Shown: piece after piece, positions 26,860 through 36,517 of the stretch
Layout: every line of letters begins with the position of its first letter
How positions within the stretch are numbered: position 1 is the stretch's first letter
Assembly: GCA_021818105.1 (NCBI GenBank)
Contig: JAKAFB010000010.1
Span: forward strand, 1-64,000
Direction of reading: 5' to 3'
Length of the DNA stretch: 64,000 nt
From: Acidobacteriota bacterium
Lineage (GTDB): Bacteria; Acidobacteriota; Terriglobia; Terriglobales; Acidobacteriaceae
Notes under the pieces: generated by a model
What the model saw: only the letters and a program-made list of their open reading frames with translations
What the model was told of the DNA's origin: nothing
Databases searched by the model: none
Program-made: the position numbers and the translations under genes

Positions 26860-29757
26860 ATGCCAAGAGTCGTAAGAAATGCATTAGCTCTGGTGCTCGG
26901 CATCGGGTTTTGTCTGCTGAAGGTTGCCTATGCTCAAACTGGTCAGAACAGCACGGCCCTCCTGGTTTTTCAGGGAACAAGTTCCGGCACGCCGACTGCG
27001 ACGGATCTTTCCAGCGCTACCGTAAGCACCTCCGATATGAGCGGAGTCTGGAACATAAGTGGCAGCGCATCGCAATTTCTGTATGATGCTGCTTCCGCAA
27101 AGCCTTTCGCCTCAAGCATAACCTTGACGAATAGCGGAACGTATCCGGGCAGCTCCAGCTTTGGACTGGACTTTACAACAGGACTAAGCGCAAGTTGGCG
27201 TTACTCGCCGTCAGCGGCCCCCACAACAGATAACTGGAGCTTCGGCCATTGGATCTCCACCACGCTCCCACAGAGTGATCCTGCAGGATATTTCTATTCA
27301 ATGACAGAGATTGGGGGATGGAACGCCAGCCTTCAACAAGGTGACTATGTAGACATTGCCATAACTTCCACTGGGAGCGCCTTGCTCCCGAAATGCGAAG
27401 TTGCAAATGAGGGACTTAACCCCATTACCGGTCCGGATGGGTCACAGATCATCATGGCGTCGAATACATGGTATGCGTTTATGACGCACTACTATGAAGG
27501 CGCAAACACAATGCAATGCATGGTGCTGGATGCGACGGGTCTCTTGATCGGGGTTGGTGGACACGCACCTTCTACAACCGGGATTGGAACCTTTGCTTTC
27601 TACTACGGGCCAAGCGGGAGTGAACCCGAGTCAAGTGGTTCGCATATATACATGGGATCGGGCGTGATGGACGCGGCAGGGGATTGGCCCGTTCCTGGAT
27701 ATGCCGCGACGGCAGCTGCGCCAACTTATAACAATGGCAGTGGAACTTATCTACAATCCGTCACTGTAGCAATTTCCGATATTACGCCTGACCCAACCGG
27801 CGCACAGAATTCACTCATCAAATATTGTACGGATCAGACAAATACCTGCACTCCAACGACGCCATACACGTCACCGGTCACTATCACAACAAATGGAACG
27901 TACCTGCGTTCGATGGCAGCAGGGCCTGGCTGGAATAACTCTGCGATCACCAGCGCGCTCTACACGATTACGCCTTGGTCCGGCCCCACGTGGATGCAGA
28001 GCTATTCATCATTGGCGCGAGGCGGCACCGGGCTTTGCGCGAACACTGCCACCTGTGTGACCAATACACAAACCTCAGTGACAAATGATGCCATAGGGGT
28101 ATTGGTTGTGTGGGATGGAGCTACGGCTTCTGTGTCGAGCATCACGGATAACTGCGGTACGAGCGGCGGCGGTAGCAATAGCTACTCCATGCTCAGCAGT
28201 CATACCGGCAATAGCTATTCAAATGATGCGCTGTTCTATGCGCGGGTTGGCTACGGGAAGAGTTGCGCGATCACAGCGACTATGAACAACTCTGCTGTTG
28301 CCAATTTTGCCATCGCTGGTGTTGAGGTTGGCAACGTCGATCCGTCTCAGCCGATTTATCCCAATAACTTTGCCTTGTCCAATCATGTTTATGCGCCGGG
28401 GAATTCGACTGACGCGGTGACTTCAGGCATTTTGACAGCGCCGACAAACGAGCCCAACACCCTTGAAACAGCCATGTTTCTTGGGTCGCCATCGGGGATC
28501 GAAACGATAGCAGCCGGTACAGGCTTTACCTTGCAAGACAGCAAGTGGAACAGTGCGGCGGGCATGGATTATGGCGTGGAGTGGACTGGCCTGCCAAATG
28601 CCGGCGTAAGTTCACCGGGAACTTTCACTTTAAGTCTGGGCAATGGCTACGTGCAGACTGCGGCAATAGCATGGCAGGCGCCATCGTCCACGACAGTGCA
28701 ACTATCCTCATCGTCCAATCCGTCGACTTATGGTACACAGGTAACGTTCACGGCTACGGTCCCGACCGCGGCAACAGGAACAATTACCTTCTACGATGGC
28801 AGCACTGCGATTTCGAGTCAGGTGCCTGTCAATAACGGCACTGCGAGCTACTCAACTTCTTCCCTGAGCGCCGGAGCGCACACAATCACGGCATCCTACT
28901 CAGGCGACTCGAACTATCCAGCTGCGACCTCCAATGCGTTGGTACAGACGGTGAATGCCGCGATAGCGGCAACTCCGACCTTCTCTCCTGCTGCTGGTAC
29001 GTATGGATCGGCGCAGACTGTGACAATTTCTGACGCCACCCCGGGCGCAATGATCTACTACACGACCGACGGCACAACTCCAACCACCAACTCGACGCTC
29101 TACACCGGTCCTATCACAGTTTCGGTGTCAGAGACCATCAAAGCAATTGCGGTGGCAACAAACTACGTGCAAAGTGCCGTGGCGAGTGCAGCGTACACAA
29201 TCAATCTGTCTCCTTCGTCCTTTAGCATTGCGGGGACATCGGTATCCATTGCCAAGGGTGCTACAACGGGTAATACATCCACCGTTACAGTTACTCCCCT
29301 GAATGGCTTTACAGGCAGCGTTGCATTAATAGCCTCGGTGACAAGCTCGCCAACTGGCGCTCAGTATCCTCCCACTGTCAGCTTTGGAGCTACAACGCCA
29401 GTATCGTTGAGCGGAGGGAACGCGGCGACCGCGACCCTGACAATCCAAACCACGGCAGCGAGTACGGCTGCCAATCACTCTCAGGAGTTCCCTTGGGGTG
29501 CGGGAGGTGGGGCAGCAATGGCTTTGGTCGCCTTGCTGTGGATTCCTGACCGGTGGAAGAAGTGGAGACAATTGGTTGCTTCGCTCTGCCTGCTATTCGC
29601 CCTTGGCATCGCCATTGGCTGTGGGGGCGGGAGCAGCAGTTCTAGCGGAGGCGGAAGTTCAATTGCGGGCACCACCTCTGGAACCTATGTCATCACGATC
29701 ACGGGGACTTCTGGATCCCTTACTGAGACAGGAACGGTGAATCTCACGGTGAAGTAG
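26860..29757 (+). CDS. Large secreted/surface protein with chitobiase-type C-terminal repeats, Ig-like (Big_3-type) repeat and internal [16 protein letters not shown] segment
   Basis: [39 protein letters not shown] and [22 protein letters not shown] repeats; signal peptide; hydrophobic [11 protein letters not shown]...[14 protein letters not shown]. Confidence 0.75.
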
Positions 29758-29846: not shown

Positions 29847-29893
29847 GATTGGCGTCCCCGACGGGATTTGAACCCGTGTTATCGCCGTGAAAG
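29847..29893. repeat. attL (47-bp direct repeat; tRNA-Glu 3' fragment)
   Basis: gattggcgtccccgacgggatttgaacccgtgttatcgccgtgaaag, identical to 36437..36483. Confidence 0.93.
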
Positions 29894-30012
29894 AGGGTAT
29901 TGAGCCATTTTGCACCATTTATAGTGCTTTGCATAGATTCGCGTAAATCCATGATTTCCAAAATAGATAAGCCCCATTTTGCTCGGATTCCTTTGTACTC
30001 ATTTTGCCCTCT

Positions 30013-30044
30013 TTAGTCCCCGCTTAGTCCCCGTAGCGTCCCCG
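30013..30044. repeat. Three tandem 11-bp-period repeats, putative integrase/accessory-factor arm sites
   Basis: TTAGTCCCCG-c-TTAGTCCCCG-t-AGCGTCCCCG. Confidence 0.55.
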
Positions 30045-30210
30045 CTTTTTCCGTCTGTTTGAAGGTGGAATCCCGCTGTTTCCGGTCTCAGAACTCGGCA
30101 ACCCGACGGGCAATTCCTCGGCACAGGCATCGCCCATCGTTCACCTTCCTTATGCGTTCAGTTTGTGTCGATGGATTGTATTGGTGGACACCAGTGCTAG
30201 ACTCTCGGCA

Positions 30211-30831
30211 ATGGCAAAACTACTCCCGCCCGAAGTTGAATCTCGGCTGTTGAAGGCCCTGAGCCTCAACAATCCAGACGACGCGATTGCGGTCATGCGG
30301 GAACACGAGCCGGGTTGGGGCATAGGGAAGCCGGGGGATGCGTTCGGCATGCCGTTTGACCCCGCGCTGTTCCGCTTCATCATGCTGGCAGACCCGCCGC
30401 AAATTGAGAGATTCAAGCCTGAGCAAAGAAAGCAGCTTCGCATCGCGGCTGTCATGCAGCACTTCATCGGGGACCAGCGTGGCTCCGAAAAGTGGCTTCC
30501 GCAAGATGTGGCCTGGGTGTACCGCGATGAACCGTTGACCGCAGTGCGGATGTGCTATTTCTGGGCAAGATCCGTGCAGGATGTGATTCTTGCGAAGTCG
30601 CTGGGGCATACCAGAAAGCGCGTTTTGGGAGAAGGGCAGAAAGGCGATCGGCGCTATGCCCGCTGCCCGCATTGCACGACCCTTCGTGAGCGCGGTTTCA
30701 TCGGCATTGATGAGGAATTCGAGCAGGGTATCAAGTTCCCGCCCTTTCGCGGATGCACACTGGCAAAGTACGCCTGTCGCTGCATCTTGGAATTCGCTGA
30801 AAGCGGAACGGGAAGCCCACTCGCTGCCTGA
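30211..30831 (+). CDS. Hypothetical protein of the island with Cys pairs
   Basis: ORF from ATG 30211; CPHC ... CRC; no family recognised. Confidence 0.55.
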   Translation: MAKLLPPEVESRLLKALSLNNPDDAIAVMREHEPGWGIGKPGDAFGMPFDPALFRFIMLADPPQIERFKPEQRKQLRIAAVMQHFIGDQRGSEKWLPQDVAWVYRDEPLTAVRMCYFWARSVQDVILAKSLGHTRKRVLGEGQKGDRRYARCPHCTTLRERGFIGIDEEFEQGIKFPPFRGCTLAKYACRCILEFAESGTGSPLAA

Positions 30832-30932
30832 TACTCGCCTGATAGCAGGTTCGCCCTCCAGGAACCCCGCTGATATTCCACTGTTCTCAGTGGGAACAGG
30901 TGGACAGCCGATGCAGCACCTTCCGTTGCCGG

Positions 30933-31307
30933 TCACAGTTCGGTTTCAGGCTCTCCGAGTAGCTCACGGATGCGCCGCTCCAGTGCTTCCCGCGTTTCGG
31001 GAATCTCAAATGGGAGCGGTCCACCGTCCGGCCCGGATTGCTCGATTCTCTGCCGCGCCTTGCCTTCCGTGCGGTCTGCAATCTCCCGGATCGCTTCCAG
31101 GTTCCCCGCTCTGGCAATTTCCACCAGCACACGGGCTATGGCCGTATCGTTCGGCACTCCGTCCGGGCCTGTCCGCTCCAACTCCGCTCGGAGTGCATCG
31201 GTAATGTGCAGTTTCTTGGGGCGGCCCGATGGGTTGCCGGACTGCCCCGGTTTCCAACGTGTCGCCTCATTGCCCGTTCCGCGCCTGTTCGCATCCATCT
31301 CAGTCAC
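30933..31307 (-). CDS. DUF5681-type protein
   Basis: GNEATRWKPGQSGNPSGRPKKLHITDALRAEL. Confidence 0.7.
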   Translation of the reverse strand: MTEMDANRRGTGNEATRWKPGQSGNPSGRPKKLHITDALRAELERTGPDGVPNDTAIARVLVEIARAGNLEAIREIADRTEGKARQRIEQSGPDGGPLPFEIPETREALERRIRELLGEPETEL

Positions 31308-31443
31308 GCGTTGTTCTACCCTTTCATCCGCGCTAACTCCTCAGTGATGGCTCAGTGACCACACGGTAACCGATACGGTGACCGCTCAGTGTTCTCTTCC
31401 ACCAGCACCAGGGAGCCGATGGGAAACAGCGGCCCGCTGGTGG

Positions 31444-31875
31444 TCACTGGCACGCCTCAAAGTCTTCTCGGAAGGTCAAGCCGGAGACCAGCACCACTCC
31501 GGCCACTTCGCCCACCAGAAAGCCCCGCTCTGTCAGCAACCGCTCGAATGTATCCCGTGTGCATGGAACCCCGTTCTGCCTGACTTCCCATTCGCAGTAG
31601 GCGATATGCAGACAAGCCACACCGCCAAAGCAGCGCGGCGAACGCACACAGGCAGAGTCCAACCAGCGGGCGAACGGTTTCCGCCACTCTGCCGGGTCAT
31701 GCGGCGGGATGCTGGCTGGTGTATCAAATGTTTTGGATTTGTCGAGAACAGGAACCGCCAAAACTGACAAAATAGGCTCGGGCAATGGTTTTGTCGGTTT
31801 TGTCAGTCCATGCTCTGGGGATTCCTGAAACTTTTCAGACGGATTCCAGTCTCTCCAGCGTCTACTTGCCAGCAT
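31444..31875 (-). CDS. Hypothetical island protein
   Basis: ATG at 31875 overlaps the end of the DUF3987 ORF, compatible with translational coupling. Confidence 0.5.
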   Translation of the reverse strand: MLASRRWRDWNPSEKFQESPEHGLTKPTKPLPEPILSVLAVPVLDKSKTFDTPASIPPHDPAEWRKPFARWLDSACVRSPRCFGGVACLHIAYCEWEVRQNGVPCTRDTFERLLTERGFLVGEVAGVVLVSGLTFREDFEACQ

Positions 31876-33472
31876 GAGTCCCCCCGATTCTTGGATTGAT
31901 GTGATAGGTCTCGCTGGGCCGTCCGGGAGTCTGTGAGTCTCCCATTTTCTCCCGTTGAATCCAGGCAAATTCTTCCAACACTGCCAATGCACCACGAACC
32001 TTATCCGGTGAATCCAGTCCGGCCCATCCGCTCCGGTACACGTCCCGCACGGTGAAGAATCCGTCATCACGCTTCCAGCCCTTTGCCAGCCGCTTGCTCA
32101 GGGCGATTGCCGCGTGTTGCTCTGGCCGCGCCTGTGCAGCGTACACGCGGCTTGCATGAGTCTCCAGATACTCGCACCAGTCACAGGCCAGTCTCGCTTG
32201 AGAGATCGGCACACTTTCCGTCTGCCCATCGGCAAGGGTGAACAGCAATGCAAGGGAAGGCATGAGGCTACGATACTTGGCAAGATGCGCTTGCATGGCT
32301 GGTGGCACATCCTCAGCTCGTATGCGCCGCTCCAGATCGGTCAGCCATTGCTCGAATAGCGCCTGAGCCTCATCATCAAATTGAAGCCGGAGCGGGTTTG
32401 CGGCTTCCAGCGCGGCAATGCGCCGGTAGACATTCGCTGTACGCTCCAAAGCATCCGAGTCCGGCTCACGGTCAATGTAACTCCAGTCTCGCGCTGTGTC
32501 CGGCCACACCATGAGTTGAAAGCGTTGCACCAGCCCATCGTTGGACGGCCCATCCTGTAATGCATCGGCCAGATAGTCCCGCAAGCGGGCAGGTTGGATT
32601 CCACCAAACAGCGATATGCAGGCATGGGGAACATGAACACTGCCGCGCCCTATGCGGTCAATGGTGAAGGCTGCATCTCCATTCCAGCACTCCAGAAAGA
32701 AGGCTCGCTCTTGTTCCCGTCCCTGTCTCTCCAGTCCGGCAAGCCAGCCGGTCAACTCATCCCGGAGCACGAACAGACCGGCGGGATTTTCTGACAGTAC
32801 ACAATGGAGACTCTCAAAGGTTGCGTCACTGGTGATGAGGCGGCGGAGCACAGGCTGTACCAGCGTGGATTCCGGCTTTGCGGGCCGGTGCTGATTCTTC
32901 TTCGCGGCGGCCTTGAATTGGTCCTTCCAGGCGGCCTTCATCAGTTCTTGTTCTTCCAGGGCGGTTTGATACCCCTGCTCTGCCTCTTCATGCTCTGTGC
33001 GCCATTCATTCTCGATTGCCCGCGCCGGTTGTGTCATGCAGGAAAGCACGGGTGACTTGAGCATCCCCGGCGGCGCTACAATTCCGCCCCAGAGGTTCGG
33101 TACTACTGTCCAGGTGTGGTCATTCCGCTTGGGCTGAATTACGGCCCGCCGGTTGGTTACTCCGGCAAGCGTGGCAATCGCGGCCACAGCGGGAAAGTCC
33201 AGCGGAACCTGCATCCGCTCGGCTACATCCTTCACCAGCAGGCGGAATGACTCAGGCATCAGCTCCAGATCGAACTGCATTACATCAGGCAGGACATCCG
33301 CCAAAGGTTCCGGCTCTGGCCAATCGTCCGAAGGCATGGGAGACAAGGGAAGCCCCAACACAGCGGCAATCTCCGGTCCAACGTCTGCCGCTGTGACGCT
33401 TGCGTGCGGGTCTCTCTGGGGAAATATCTCGCCCGGTCCAAACGGCAAGGCTGATTCACATTGGCTACCCAT
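31862..33472 (-). CDS. DUF3987 domain protein (YfjI-like, helicase/primase-associated)
   Basis: VPLDFPAVAAIATLAGVTNRRAVIQPK..., PNLWGGIVAPPGMLKSPVL, FVLRDELTGWLAGLERQGREQERAFFLECWNG. Confidence 0.8.
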   Translation of the reverse strand: MGSQCESALPFGPGEIFPQRDPHASVTAADVGPEIAAVLGLPLSPMPSDDWPEPEPLADVLPDVMQFDLELMPESFRLLVKDVAERMQVPLDFPAVAAIATLAGVTNRRAVIQPKRNDHTWTVVPNLWGGIVAPPGMLKSPVLSCMTQPARAIENEWRTEHEEAEQGYQTALEEQELMKAAWKDQFKAAAKKNQHRPAKPESTLVQPVLRRLITSDATFESLHCVLSENPAGLFVLRDELTGWLAGLERQGREQERAFFLECWNGDAAFTIDRIGRGSVHVPHACISLFGGIQPARLRDYLADALQDGPSNDGLVQRFQLMVWPDTARDWSYIDREPDSDALERTANVYRRIAALEAANPLRLQFDDEAQALFEQWLTDLERRIRAEDVPPAMQAHLAKYRSLMPSLALLFTLADGQTESVPISQARLACDWCEYLETHASRVYAAQARPEQHAAIALSKRLAKGWKRDDGFFTVRDVYRSGWAGLDSPDKVRGALAVLEEFAWIQREKMGDSQTPGRPSETYHINPRIGGTHAGK

Positions 33473-33968
33473 TGGTCTCTTCCTTCTCTTGCGCTCTCAC
33501 CCGGCGCATGGGATAGAACTTATCCGCCTCAGTCTCAGCTTCATGGAGCCGGTCACAGGCCGCGTGAAACAGCCTGCCCAGTTTGTCACTCTCCGGCAAC
33601 CGCACCAGTTTTTCTCCAAGCGCGTTCACCACGGCTTGCAGTTTTTCCACGCGGTCCAATGCGGCCAGCCGCGCCTTGCGTTCGGCCCTCGCGGCTCTCT
33701 GGCTGGCCTCCTGTGCGGCCCGGAGCGCGTCTTGCTGCGCTGGTGACGGCGGTGGACCCGCGAACAGATCGCGCTTGCCCAATCGCAGAGCGGCAAGAAT
33801 TGTGTCCAGAGCGCATCCCGCACGGCAGAGAACCAGCACACGGCCATCGTCCCCCTCGCGGATTGAGAGTGACGGGGAGCGATCATTGTGCGCCGGACAA
33901 TGTGCCTTCCATCGGCCCGTGCCGGTTGACTGCGCTTGCACGAGGTCTGCAAACGCAGCGGCGGTCAT
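33465..33968 (-). CDS. CHC2-type zinc finger primase-like protein
   Basis: GRWKAHCPAHNDRSPSLSIREGDDGRVLVLCRAGC. Confidence 0.75.
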   Translation of the reverse strand: MTAAAFADLVQAQSTGTGRWKAHCPAHNDRSPSLSIREGDDGRVLVLCRAGCALDTILAALRLGKRDLFAGPPPSPAQQDALRAAQEASQRAARAERKARLAALDRVEKLQAVVNALGEKLVRLPESDKLGRLFHAACDRLHEAETEADKFYPMRRVRAQEKEETNG

Positions 33969-34210
33969 TGCTGTGCGGCTTGTAGGCGTGGCCGCAACGA
34001 CTCGCTGAGAAGCTGGTCAATGGAGTCCTGAGACACCATCAGGCGCGTTCCAATCTTGTAGGAAGCAATTCTGCCCGTGTAGCACCATTGCCGAATTGTC
34101 CAGTGAGAGAGTCCAAGCATTTCCCCCGCCTTGTAGACGCTGAGGAGTAGTGGGCTTGCCGGGGTGCTTGGAGCGAGCGGTGTTGACGGGGTTTTGGTCT
34201 GTTTGGTCAT
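33965..34210 (-). CDS. AlpA/excisionase-family helix-turn-helix protein
   Basis: LLSVYKAGEMLGLSHWTIRQWCYTGRIASYKIGTRLMVSQDSIDQLL. Confidence 0.8.
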   Translation of the reverse strand: MTKQTKTPSTPLAPSTPASPLLLSVYKAGEMLGLSHWTIRQWCYTGRIASYKIGTRLMVSQDSIDQLLSESLRPRLQAAQQ

Positions 34211-34330
34211 GTAGGAGACCTTTCTGCGCTAGGCGCATTGAATTTGCTGAGGTCATCTTCCATCAGGCCGCTTATGATTAGGTGATAGATTTGTTAGCCT
34301 ATTTATGTAGTTTTGTACTAACGTAGTTTT

Positions 34331-35296
34331 ATGCAGTACAGGAAAGACTATCCGATTGAAGACATGCTCGATTTTCTTGAACCAACCTTTCCAGAGAGAG
34401 TGAACCGCTGGCAGGGGTTCGGGAAATCGGTGCTGATTTCGTTAGACAAGGAAGGTGCTGCCGCTGTGCAGCGAGAGTTCCGCCAGTACCTTGAGGAATG
34501 GATACAGACAGGATTCCAGCCGGATGGTTCGGAGTGGCCGGAGAAGCGGAACTTCGCTCCGCCTCAGTCGGCAGAGTCCTTCAGCGGCAAACCCTTTCCG
34601 CGTGCTCTGGAGTCGTTGGCTAGATTCTGGAATGGCGCATTGCTGGTGAAAACCGATAAGTCCGCCGGATGGTCCTATTTGATTGTCCCTAGCCAACAGG
34701 CAAACGCAGACAGTGACCCACCAGCGGGATTGTCCGTTGAGATTGGTCCGCAAGGCGGTTTCGGATACCAGCCAAGCATAAGCAAGAGGCGAGCGTATCC
34801 GGCAAGCGAGATCGAACAGGCAAACCCGCCCGAATTGAAGGGACTTAGGATTGCAGACCGTAGCAAGTATGTTCCCGAACCCGTCAACCCTGAGCCGGTA
34901 GCTGCGGGCCTGTTTGAGAGTTTCTACCGCTCTGAGTGGCTGTTCCGGTTGATGCAGTGCCATCACTGCCGCTCATTCGCCGTTCCGAACAAGCCACGCA
35001 AGAGCTATGTGCGGGGTTGGCATTGCCGCAAGTGCAGCAGCAAAGTCACCGCAACCAAAGCGACAGAGAGAAGCAGGAAACAACAGCGCGATAAATGGCT
35101 CAACCTGGCCGTCGATGCTTGCGCCCGGTGGGATGCAATGTCACGAAAGCCACGGGGGATAGATCGGATTCCGTGGATAACCGAGCAAGTCAACGGGAAA
35201 CTGGCGCTGGTGAACCGCATCAAACGCCAAACAATCACGCGCAATCTGAGCGAGATCGAAATGAAAGTGAGGGAGCGCAATCATGCCGAAAGCTAA
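34331..35296 (+). CDS. Hypothetical protein with CGNR/zinc-ribbon-like C-terminus
   Basis: CHHCRSFAVPNKPRKSYVRGWHCRKCSSKVTATKATERSRKQQRDKW; overlaps integrase start by 14 bp. Confidence 0.6.
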   Translation: MQYRKDYPIEDMLDFLEPTFPERVNRWQGFGKSVLISLDKEGAAAVQREFRQYLEEWIQTGFQPDGSEWPEKRNFAPPQSAESFSGKPFPRALESLARFWNGALLVKTDKSAGWSYLIVPSQQANADSDPPAGLSVEIGPQGGFGYQPSISKRRAYPASEIEQANPPELKGLRIADRSKYVPEPVNPEPVAAGLFESFYRSEWLFRLMQCHHCRSFAVPNKPRKSYVRGWHCRKCSSKVTATKATERSRKQQRDKWLNLAVDACARWDAMSRKPRGIDRIPWITEQVNGKLALVNRIKRQTITRNLSEIEMKVRERNHAES

Positions 35297-36323
35297 AGAG
35301 CGGGATGGGGTGTTTCAGCGGAAGGACCGGAGCGGCTGGTGGGTTTCATATGTGGACGGAAGCGGCACACGAAAGAAAGAGAAGGTCACAGCCGCTACGC
35401 GCACTCAGGCCATGACGGCACTCGCTCAGATCAAGACTCGCATCGAACGGGAATCCATTCTTGGGGTGAAGTCTGCCAGCGAGATCACGACGGCGGACTT
35501 GTTGGCTCGATTTAAGGCTTACCAGAAAGCCCATTTGCGCCCAACGACGTTTGCGCGGTTGGATGGAATTCTGGAGACGCTCAAGGCTGCGCTGCCCGTC
35601 CAGGCGAAAGAGATCACACGCGGAGTAGTGGCCGCCTACATTCTCAAGCGGAGCGAGACAGTCTCCGCCGGTTCGGTAGCAAAAGAGGTCTCGACTCTAA
35701 GACATGCTCTGCGCCTGGCCGTGGAATGGGAACTGCTCACAGCGAACCCGGCACAGGGCGCGAAACTGCCCAAACAATCGGAAGGCCGGACGCGGTATCT
35801 GTCTCCCACGGAATTCAAGGCCGCGCTGGAAGCCGCGCCGGAGTGGATGCGCGGTCCAATGGCTCTGGCCGCGTTCACTGGGATGCGCCGGGGCGAGATT
35901 CTCGGCTTGTGCTGGAAGGATGTTGACCTTGCCCACCAGCGCGTCTACTTGACGGAGACAAAAAACGGGACACTGCGGGTTGTGGCATTGAACGCGCTGG
36001 CCGTCCAGGTGCTTCAGAGTCTCCCGGTGGGCTGTCCCGGTCAACTGGTATTCCCCGATGTAGACGCGGCCCGCCTCAGCGTCTACACGCGGCGCGTATT
36101 CGCTTCCGTGGGCATTGCGGACGCATCGTTCCACTCGCTCCGGCACACGGCGGCAAGCTGGCTGGTCATGGAAGGCGTAGACCTGTACGCGGTGGGCCAA
36201 ATTCTCGGACACAAAACGCCGCGCATGACGCAGAGGTACGCCCATCTCTCACCCGGATACATGGCGGCGGCAGTGAACAAGTTGGACGGGGTGTTTGCCG
36301 GTGCTCTACCGGAGCCGAAGTAA
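35283..36323 (+). CDS. Tyrosine recombinase / integrase
   Basis: AAFTGMRRGEILGLCWKDVDL ... FHSLRHTAASWLVMEGVDLYAVGQILGHKTPRMTQRYAHLS. Confidence 0.95.
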   Translation: MPKAKERDGVFQRKDRSGWWVSYVDGSGTRKKEKVTAATRTQAMTALAQIKTRIERESILGVKSASEITTADLLARFKAYQKAHLRPTTFARLDGILETLKAALPVQAKEITRGVVAAYILKRSETVSAGSVAKEVSTLRHALRLAVEWELLTANPAQGAKLPKQSEGRTRYLSPTEFKAALEAAPEWMRGPMALAAFTGMRRGEILGLCWKDVDLAHQRVYLTETKNGTLRVVALNALAVQVLQSLPVGCPGQLVFPDVDAARLSVYTRRVFASVGIADASFHSLRHTAASWLVMEGVDLYAVGQILGHKTPRMTQRYAHLSPGYMAAAVNKLDGVFAGALPEPK

Positions 36324-36372
36324 ATTTGTCAGGGAATGGCTTGGGATGTTTTGGGGATTGTCTACCTTCGCG

Positions 36373-36393
36373 TTAGTCCCCGCAGCGTCCCCG
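36373..36393. repeat. Two tandem 11-bp-period repeats near the right end
   Basis: TTAGTCCCCG-c-AGCGTCCCCG, matching 30024..30044 except one base. Confidence 0.55.
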
Positions 36394-36439
36394 GCTTTCG
36401 GGATGGCCGCTCAGAATTCATTTAAGTTGTTGATTTGAT

Positions 36440-36517
36440 TGGCGTCCCCGACGGGATTTGAACCCGTGTTATCGCCGTGAAAGGGCGGTGTCCTAGGCCG
36501 GGCTAGACGACGGGGAC
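36440..36517 (-). tRNA. tRNA-Glu(UUC), integration target
   Basis: Reverse complement GTCCCCGTCGTCTAGCCCGG...CCGCCCTTTCACGGCGA...GGGTTCAAATCCCGTCGGGGACGCCA. Confidence 0.95.

Follow-up and report, generated by a model that had tools for sequence, protein, structure and literature searches.

Introduction

Most known phage satellites come from a small number of Proteobacteria and Firmicutes, and a literature search yielded no paper on satellites in Acidobacteria, a dominant soil group. The described systems closest to the locus presented here are the phage-inducible chromosomal minimalist islands (PICMIs), reported in 2024 as Vibrionaceae satellites of virulent phages with an average size of 6.7 kb (PMC10803314). 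Their detection model comprises an integrase (int, PF00589), AlpA (PF05930/PF12728), the replication gene prim (PF13148 or PF19263) and fis; the early operon is alpA-up1-prim, and in most subfamilies a gene overlaps int by 1, 4 or 13 nt and is required for excision in the prototype (PMC10803314). A complete PICMI outside Vibrio was not reported by the authors, who termed integration at fis a hallmark (PMC10803314). Induction by a helper phage, in which they are packaged as concatemers, is a further trait of PICMIs. Here we describe an element of about 6.6 kb from a soil Acidobacteriota bacterium (Acidobacteriaceae, assembly GCA_021818105.1), located in a window of 64,000 nt, which is the whole stretch of contig JAKAFB010000010.1 that was analysed. 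It is near certain that this is an integrative mobile element, and from its sequence features we read it, with a probability of about 0.6, as an integrated phage satellite of a minimal PICMI-like type.

Comparison with PICMIs and other satellites

Like the PICMIs, the element has a size of about 6.7 kb, an integrase of PF00589, an AlpA protein of PF12728 and a replication protein of PF13148. In both, a gene overlaps int, one gene stands between alpA and prim, an accessory gene lies at the far end, and capsid and relaxase genes are absent. The gene overlapping int, which encodes a zinc-finger protein, may be considered an analogue of the PICMI gene iolg. However, the element lies in tRNA-Glu and not by fis, the neighbour kept in relatives being an efflux gene; its host and nearest relatives are Acidobacteriaceae, whereas PICMI hosts are Vibrionaceae; and it has gpB and a DUF5681 gene, the latter a candidate for the small terminase subunit. 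Since both fis and a Vibrionaceae host are missing, the element looks like a PICMI in build, yet is none by the definition of those authors.

With the phage-inducible chromosomal islands (PICIs) the element shares int, AlpA, a replication protein and possibly its own small terminase subunit, as DUF5681 relatives adjoin large terminase genes elsewhere, but its gene set is smaller, and Pfam/PHROG scans of its eight proteins recognised no capsid-remodelling or interference genes. In contrast to the capsid-forming PICIs (cfPICIs), own capsid or head genes were not found in these scans, nor were psu, sid, delta or P4 alpha-type genes. Because these hallmark genes were not found, cfPICI and P4-like membership was rejected, and the P4-like resemblance proposed in an earlier note on this DNA was not supported. 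The element resembles the cryptic P4-like CP4-57, which carries AlpA followed by a YfjI (DUF3987) protein (alpA-yfjI), in this gene succession and in the tRNA-type target. Tycheposons of Prochlorococcus are likewise small, carry cargo and use tyrosine recombinases to move at tRNA genes, but they belong to another phylum. The possibility of an uncharacterised satellite family, also raised in that note, is plausible and better founded than before, because the layout matches that of PICMIs and the sister elements described below carry terminase-small-like genes.

Integration into tRNA-Glu

The element is bracketed by a perfect 47-bp direct repeat of the 3' half of tRNA-Glu(UUC), a duplication already noticed earlier and recovered by a repeat search; ARAGORN identified the complete tRNA gene (Table 1). 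Within the 64 kb the 28-bp core of the repeat matches only at attL and attR, where the chance expectation is none, and a single complete copy of tRNA-Glu(ttc) was matched across the host's own genome. As attR is the 3' part of the intact tRNA gene and attL a fragment, insertion took place at the 3' side of this gene and left the fragment at the far end. The sequence thus shows entry by integrase-mediated recombination across approximately 45 bp of the tRNA 3' half, which restored the tRNA. Arm-type integrase sites stand on either side of the att core. Here, probable arm-type repeats flank the core on both sides once the element is drawn as a circle, and in the sister locus L025, whose integrase is 91% identical, the arm repeats are identical and lie at equal distances from the core. 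There was no G+C contrast (58.2% vs 58.0%), and promoter and terminator scans yielded no better than chance.

In 17 relatives, the same efflux genes follow tRNA-Glu and the opposite side is different in each. Across 59 genomes belonging to the genus, tRNA-Glu mostly keeps its efflux gene on the right, and about two dozen of these genomes contain additional 3' fragments of tRNA-Glu. Detailed reading of individual loci found other integrases next to the tRNA in several cases and none in several more (e.g. L161, L165, L168, L172 and L178). Therefore, the occupancy of tRNA-Glu is variable; this variation, seen in the differing left sides and in the integrases, had been named beforehand as a check. 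Among the relatives examined, no empty site could be demonstrated that is exactly rejoined and retains both flanks, because the left side of tRNA-Glu was different in every one of them. Homologues of the integrase (42-91% identity) adjoin the same att core, so that this integrase family is apparently tied to tRNA-Glu. Together, the att and arm-type repeats, the variable occupancy and the sister elements bear out the earlier proposal of an integrative element that occupies tRNA-Glu and has its own excision/replication module.

Gene content

The element encodes eight proteins, which from left to right are gpA, DUF5681, gpB, DUF3987, CHC2, AlpA-like, the zinc-finger protein and the integrase. The genes alpA, CHC2, DUF3987 and gpB show successive overlaps of a few bases and are read as a single operon, divergent from the int operon; no significant fold was found in the control region between them. 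The calls of tyrosine integrase, AlpA-like, DUF3987 and DUF5681 proteins made in the earlier note were confirmed by Pfam (96, 32, 308 and 57 bits, respectively). Scans with Pfam, PHROG and further libraries agreed that gpA, gpB and the zinc-finger protein match no family, and found no recognisable conjugation (relaxase included), capsid or terminase-large genes among the eight proteins. The description of the CHC2 protein as primase-like could be refined: it has the zinc finger, although below the cut-off, and a match to the DNA primase phrog_6088 (5.7e-13) confined to its N-terminal part, but neither a TOPRIM nor another primase catalytic domain was found with Pfam. Without TOPRIM, it is therefore no complete primase on its own.

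Table 1. Features of the element and its target in the window.
Feature	Position	Strand	Evidence or remark
attL, fragment of tRNA-Glu 3' half	29847-29893	-	47/47 identical to 36437-36483
Left arm-type direct repeats TTAGTCCCCG (x2) and variant TAGCGTCCCCG	30013-30044	+	probable integrase arm sites
gpA, 206 aa, putative cargo, zinc-finger-like C-terminus	30211-30831	+	singleton
DUF5681 protein, GNPxGRPK motif, candidate small terminase subunit	30933-31307	-	PF18932 57.4 bits
gpB, 143 aa, directly behind the DUF3987 gene and overlapping it	31444-31875	-	conserved in relatives
DUF3987 (YfjI-type) replication protein, predicted MCM/AAA+ helicase	31862-33472	-	PF13148 307.6 bits
CHC2 zinc-finger protein	33465-33968	-	CHC2 Pfam 16.5 bits (below cut-off); phrog_6088
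AlpA-like HTH_17 excisionase/regulator	33965-34210	-	PF12728 32.1 bits (cut-off 27); phrog_66 excisionase 8.2e-5
Divergent control region, alpA to int operon, repeated GTAGTTTT motif	34211-34330	.	sequence
Zinc-finger protein, 14-nt overlap with int	34331-35296	+	without assigned family
Tyrosine integrase, apparently tRNA-Glu-specific	35283-36323	+	PF00589 96.5 bits (cut-off 27.1)
Right arm-type repeat TTAGTCCCCGCAGCGTCCCCG (one repeat and variant)	36373-36393	+	probable integrase arm site
attR, inside functional tRNA-Glu gene	36437-36483	-	47-bp direct repeat
Complete tRNA-Glu (anticodon ttc), integration target	36440-36517	-	ARAGORN

Among 16 integrase loci compared, 11 show an int overlap of exactly 14 nt, although the overlapping proteins themselves are diverse. 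gpB is conserved across most Acidobacteriaceae sister loci (31-74% identity). As regards gpA, neither Pfam, PHROG, PADLOC and NCBIfam nor the defence library gave a match, its relatives are absent from the 248 other genomes of the order (249 including its own), and the comparison with phages produced a chance-level match only.

The DUF3987 protein is most likely an MCM-like AAA+ helicase and not itself a primase, since the PDB structures closest in fold to its AlphaFold model (predicted local distance difference test, pLDDT, 82.6) were those of MCM replicative helicases, with partial overlap and an E value of about 1e-6, and the closest viral folds came from tailed phages, namely from DUF3987 and helicase proteins.

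A family of sister elements with exchangeable modules

The distribution of the helicase is patchy, with a close relative in 14 of the 249 genomes of the order (own genome counted). A scan of GTDB genomes gave 382 DUF3987 relatives, the best in Acidobacteriaceae (Granulicella, Acidobacterium, Occallatibacter and metagenome bins) and further ones in Bryobacterales, Proteobacteria, Planctomycetota and others. We surveyed the best 80 related loci, in named genomes, for tRNA repeats, and in 20 of them such a repeat spans the DUF3987 gene. Seventeen of these repeats are of 24-64 bp and delimit elements of 5.6-10.5 kb; the targets are nine kinds of tRNA (Glu, Lys, Ala, Val, Arg, Leu, Met, Thr and Pro), and one further sister of 7.7 kb lies in tRNA-Asn. 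The earlier note had asked whether the same gene set occurs at tRNA-Glu in relatives: Acidobacterium sp. palsa_343 (L251) has a complete sister of 7.1 kb in tRNA-Glu with identical core gene order. Another tRNA-Glu element, of 8.6 kb (L128:2382-11029), carries the phage-defence pair AbiLi/AbiLii as cargo, and thus defence cargo occurs in this integrase family. A few loci (L036/L270, L278 and L284) depart from the usual 3' half, their att repeat corresponding to the 5' half of tRNA-Leu or tRNA-Thr.

DNA similarity to L025 is confined to three blocks, which are the att/arm end (84%), DUF3987 with gpB (82%), and int with attR (84%). The int block starts at the int start codon, or at most 3 bases from it, in L025, L041 and L250, and the helicase block ends within 3 bases of position 33330 in L025, L248, L249, L250 and L252. 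Between both junctions the int-overlapping gene, alpA and the primase part are all replaced; that is, the sisters keep helicase and int, and swap the primase and regulatory parts at fixed junctions. In the set formed by L025, L027, L032, L035, L036 and L037, a Prim-Pol domain occurs in one protein and a PriCT-1 domain in one. Together with the sequence at the junction, this suggests that in L025 and alike a primase of that type is fused ahead of the helicase, whereas in our element CHC2 is a gene of its own. In that case the helicase would form the core that stays, and the primase/initiator and excision/regulation parts would be exchangeable.

The packaging question

A second DUF5681 gene of the host genome (contig C27) ends inside the start of a large terminase (TerL) gene (PF17289, 63.7 bits), the only PF17289 match in that genome. 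Members of the DUF5681 family often lie immediately upstream of TerL genes: by the search made, this neighbourhood appeared in 4 of 20 loci retrieved from relatives (L078, L079, L082 and L087), and the copy in L087 is the closest to that of the element (43-46% identity). Phage MW202647 presents a family member in the same position. Other DUF5681 genes are solitary or belong to small elements, in some cases with a DnaB-like gene ahead of them. In the sisters, terminase-small-like genes are found behind the replication genes in L037 (phrog_4102, 1.3e-18) and L027 (phrog_9231, 1.6e-6). The latter, a 6.6-kb element in tRNA-Lys (L027:5088-11705), bears an HGG motif in this gene, whose relatives appear in four more loci, and also has a head-morphogenesis-like gene (phrog_324, 3.4e-19) with an N-terminal zinc ribbon. 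The recurrence of terminase-small-like genes in the sisters favours a packaging function. We propose DUF5681 as a small terminase subunit as a working hypothesis, given that its fold is unmatched.

Two further observations concern these genes. The cassette on contig C27 (L048:8498-14044) consists of ParB/methyltransferase, DUF5681, terminase large, DUF2924-like and serine recombinase genes, and L081 and L085 have a cassette of this type in which the terminase-large gene is apparently missing.

Discussion

As we mentioned before, the element is best read as a minimal phage satellite, and it probably spreads by riding in a virus, because the layout matches that of PICMIs and its relatives sit in many other tRNA genes. 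Several results weigh against this reading. The predicted fold of DUF5681, a moderate model, had no useful match and no solved terminase in the PDB, and DUF5681 is near DUF3987 in only a few other elements. Relatives of the integrase were not found in IMG/VR by the search made, those of DUF3987 peak there at 53% identity, and none of the short viral contigs with DUF3987 that were read at full length has terminal repeats. Likewise, no DUF5681 relatives were found in IMG/VR, and hence no virion-derived copy of the element. The host genome gave no HK97-type capsid gene, so that there is no co-resident HK97 helper, and its sole PF17289 TerL sits outside any full prophage. In addition, published PICMIs have no packaging genes and are located only at fis (PMC10803314). 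Apart from these points, the IMG/VR contig L184 combines a 51%-identical DUF3987 with terminase-large open reading frames, and may be a phage or a larger satellite using the same helicase.

Among the other explanations, an integrative mobilizable element, which would use the machinery of a conjugative element through an origin of transfer (oriT) without its own relaxase, appears unlikely. Elements of this kind have an equal size range, DUF3987 relatives are present on plasmids, and Bacteroides mobilizable elements also bear HTH_17 and DUF3987 genes. However, no relaxase family was found in the eight proteins nor among the first 25 families listed in each tally for 11 sisters, 12 of the 14 plasmids with a DUF3987 relative are rated non-mobilizable, and the sisters have terminase-small-like genes instead. 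Those small non-mobilizable plasmids could rather suggest a self-replicating integrative plasmid without dedicated transfer, moved by natural transformation or generalised transduction, and the complete replication and integration modules and the absence of a transfer gene agree with it; we regard it as quite unlikely, as AlpA and the int-overlapping gene form the layout of helper-responsive satellites and terminase-small-like genes recur behind the replication module. A decayed prophage remnant would explain an integrase, an excisionase and replication genes without structural ones, but it is very improbable: every gene is intact, the genes lie close together, the att repeats are perfect, and sisters of 5.6-10.5 kb share the core in other tRNAs, with no structural gene set found in the 11 sisters scanned.

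If the element is a satellite, its cycle could be the following. Excision would be directed by AlpA, acting with the integrase and with the zinc-finger protein whose gene overlaps int. The excised circle would be replicated by the products of the alpA-CHC2-DUF3987-gpB operon, among which the MCM-like helicase would form the core and the CHC2 protein would serve as an exchangeable primase or initiator part; excision by AlpA and integrase and replication by an own MCM-like helicase are well supported by what is known of these families. A helper phage may trigger the operon and supply capsid, tail and large terminase, DUF5681 may act as small terminase subunit steering packaging to the element's own DNA, and gpA could be cargo of benefit to the host or the element, like the defence genes in the sister element.

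More tentatively, the sisters may constitute a large unnamed family of minimal tRNA-gene phage satellites that spans the Acidobacteriota and has relatives in Proteobacteria, Planctomycetota and others. In this family the MCM-like DUF3987 helicase would be constant and primase, regulatory and terminase-small parts would be swapped at fixed junctions, so that one chassis could follow different helpers. If this is true, the minimal PICMI-type layout is a widespread design using many tRNA genes and no fis-bound speciality of Vibrio, and the division into constant and swappable modules indicates which parts determine the choice of helper. Cultured relatives carry sister elements, which makes the reading directly testable; they are Granulicella sp. 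L46 (in tRNA-Asn), Occallatibacter savannae AB23 (in tRNA-Val), Granulicella sp. dw_53 (beside tRNA-Pro) and Acidobacteriaceae bacterium KBS 83.

Finally, some observations were made around tRNA-Glu. In L164 (6762-17086), two complete tRNA-Glu genes lie 10.2 kb apart with an integrase between them, seemingly an element carrying a whole tRNA copy. L025 (13217-15918) presents two distinct integrases in tandem at one tRNA-Glu att core, probably stacked elements. To the left of the element, window positions 26860-29757 hold a gene for a large repeat-rich protein, partial relatives of which are also found left of tRNA-Glu in L163.

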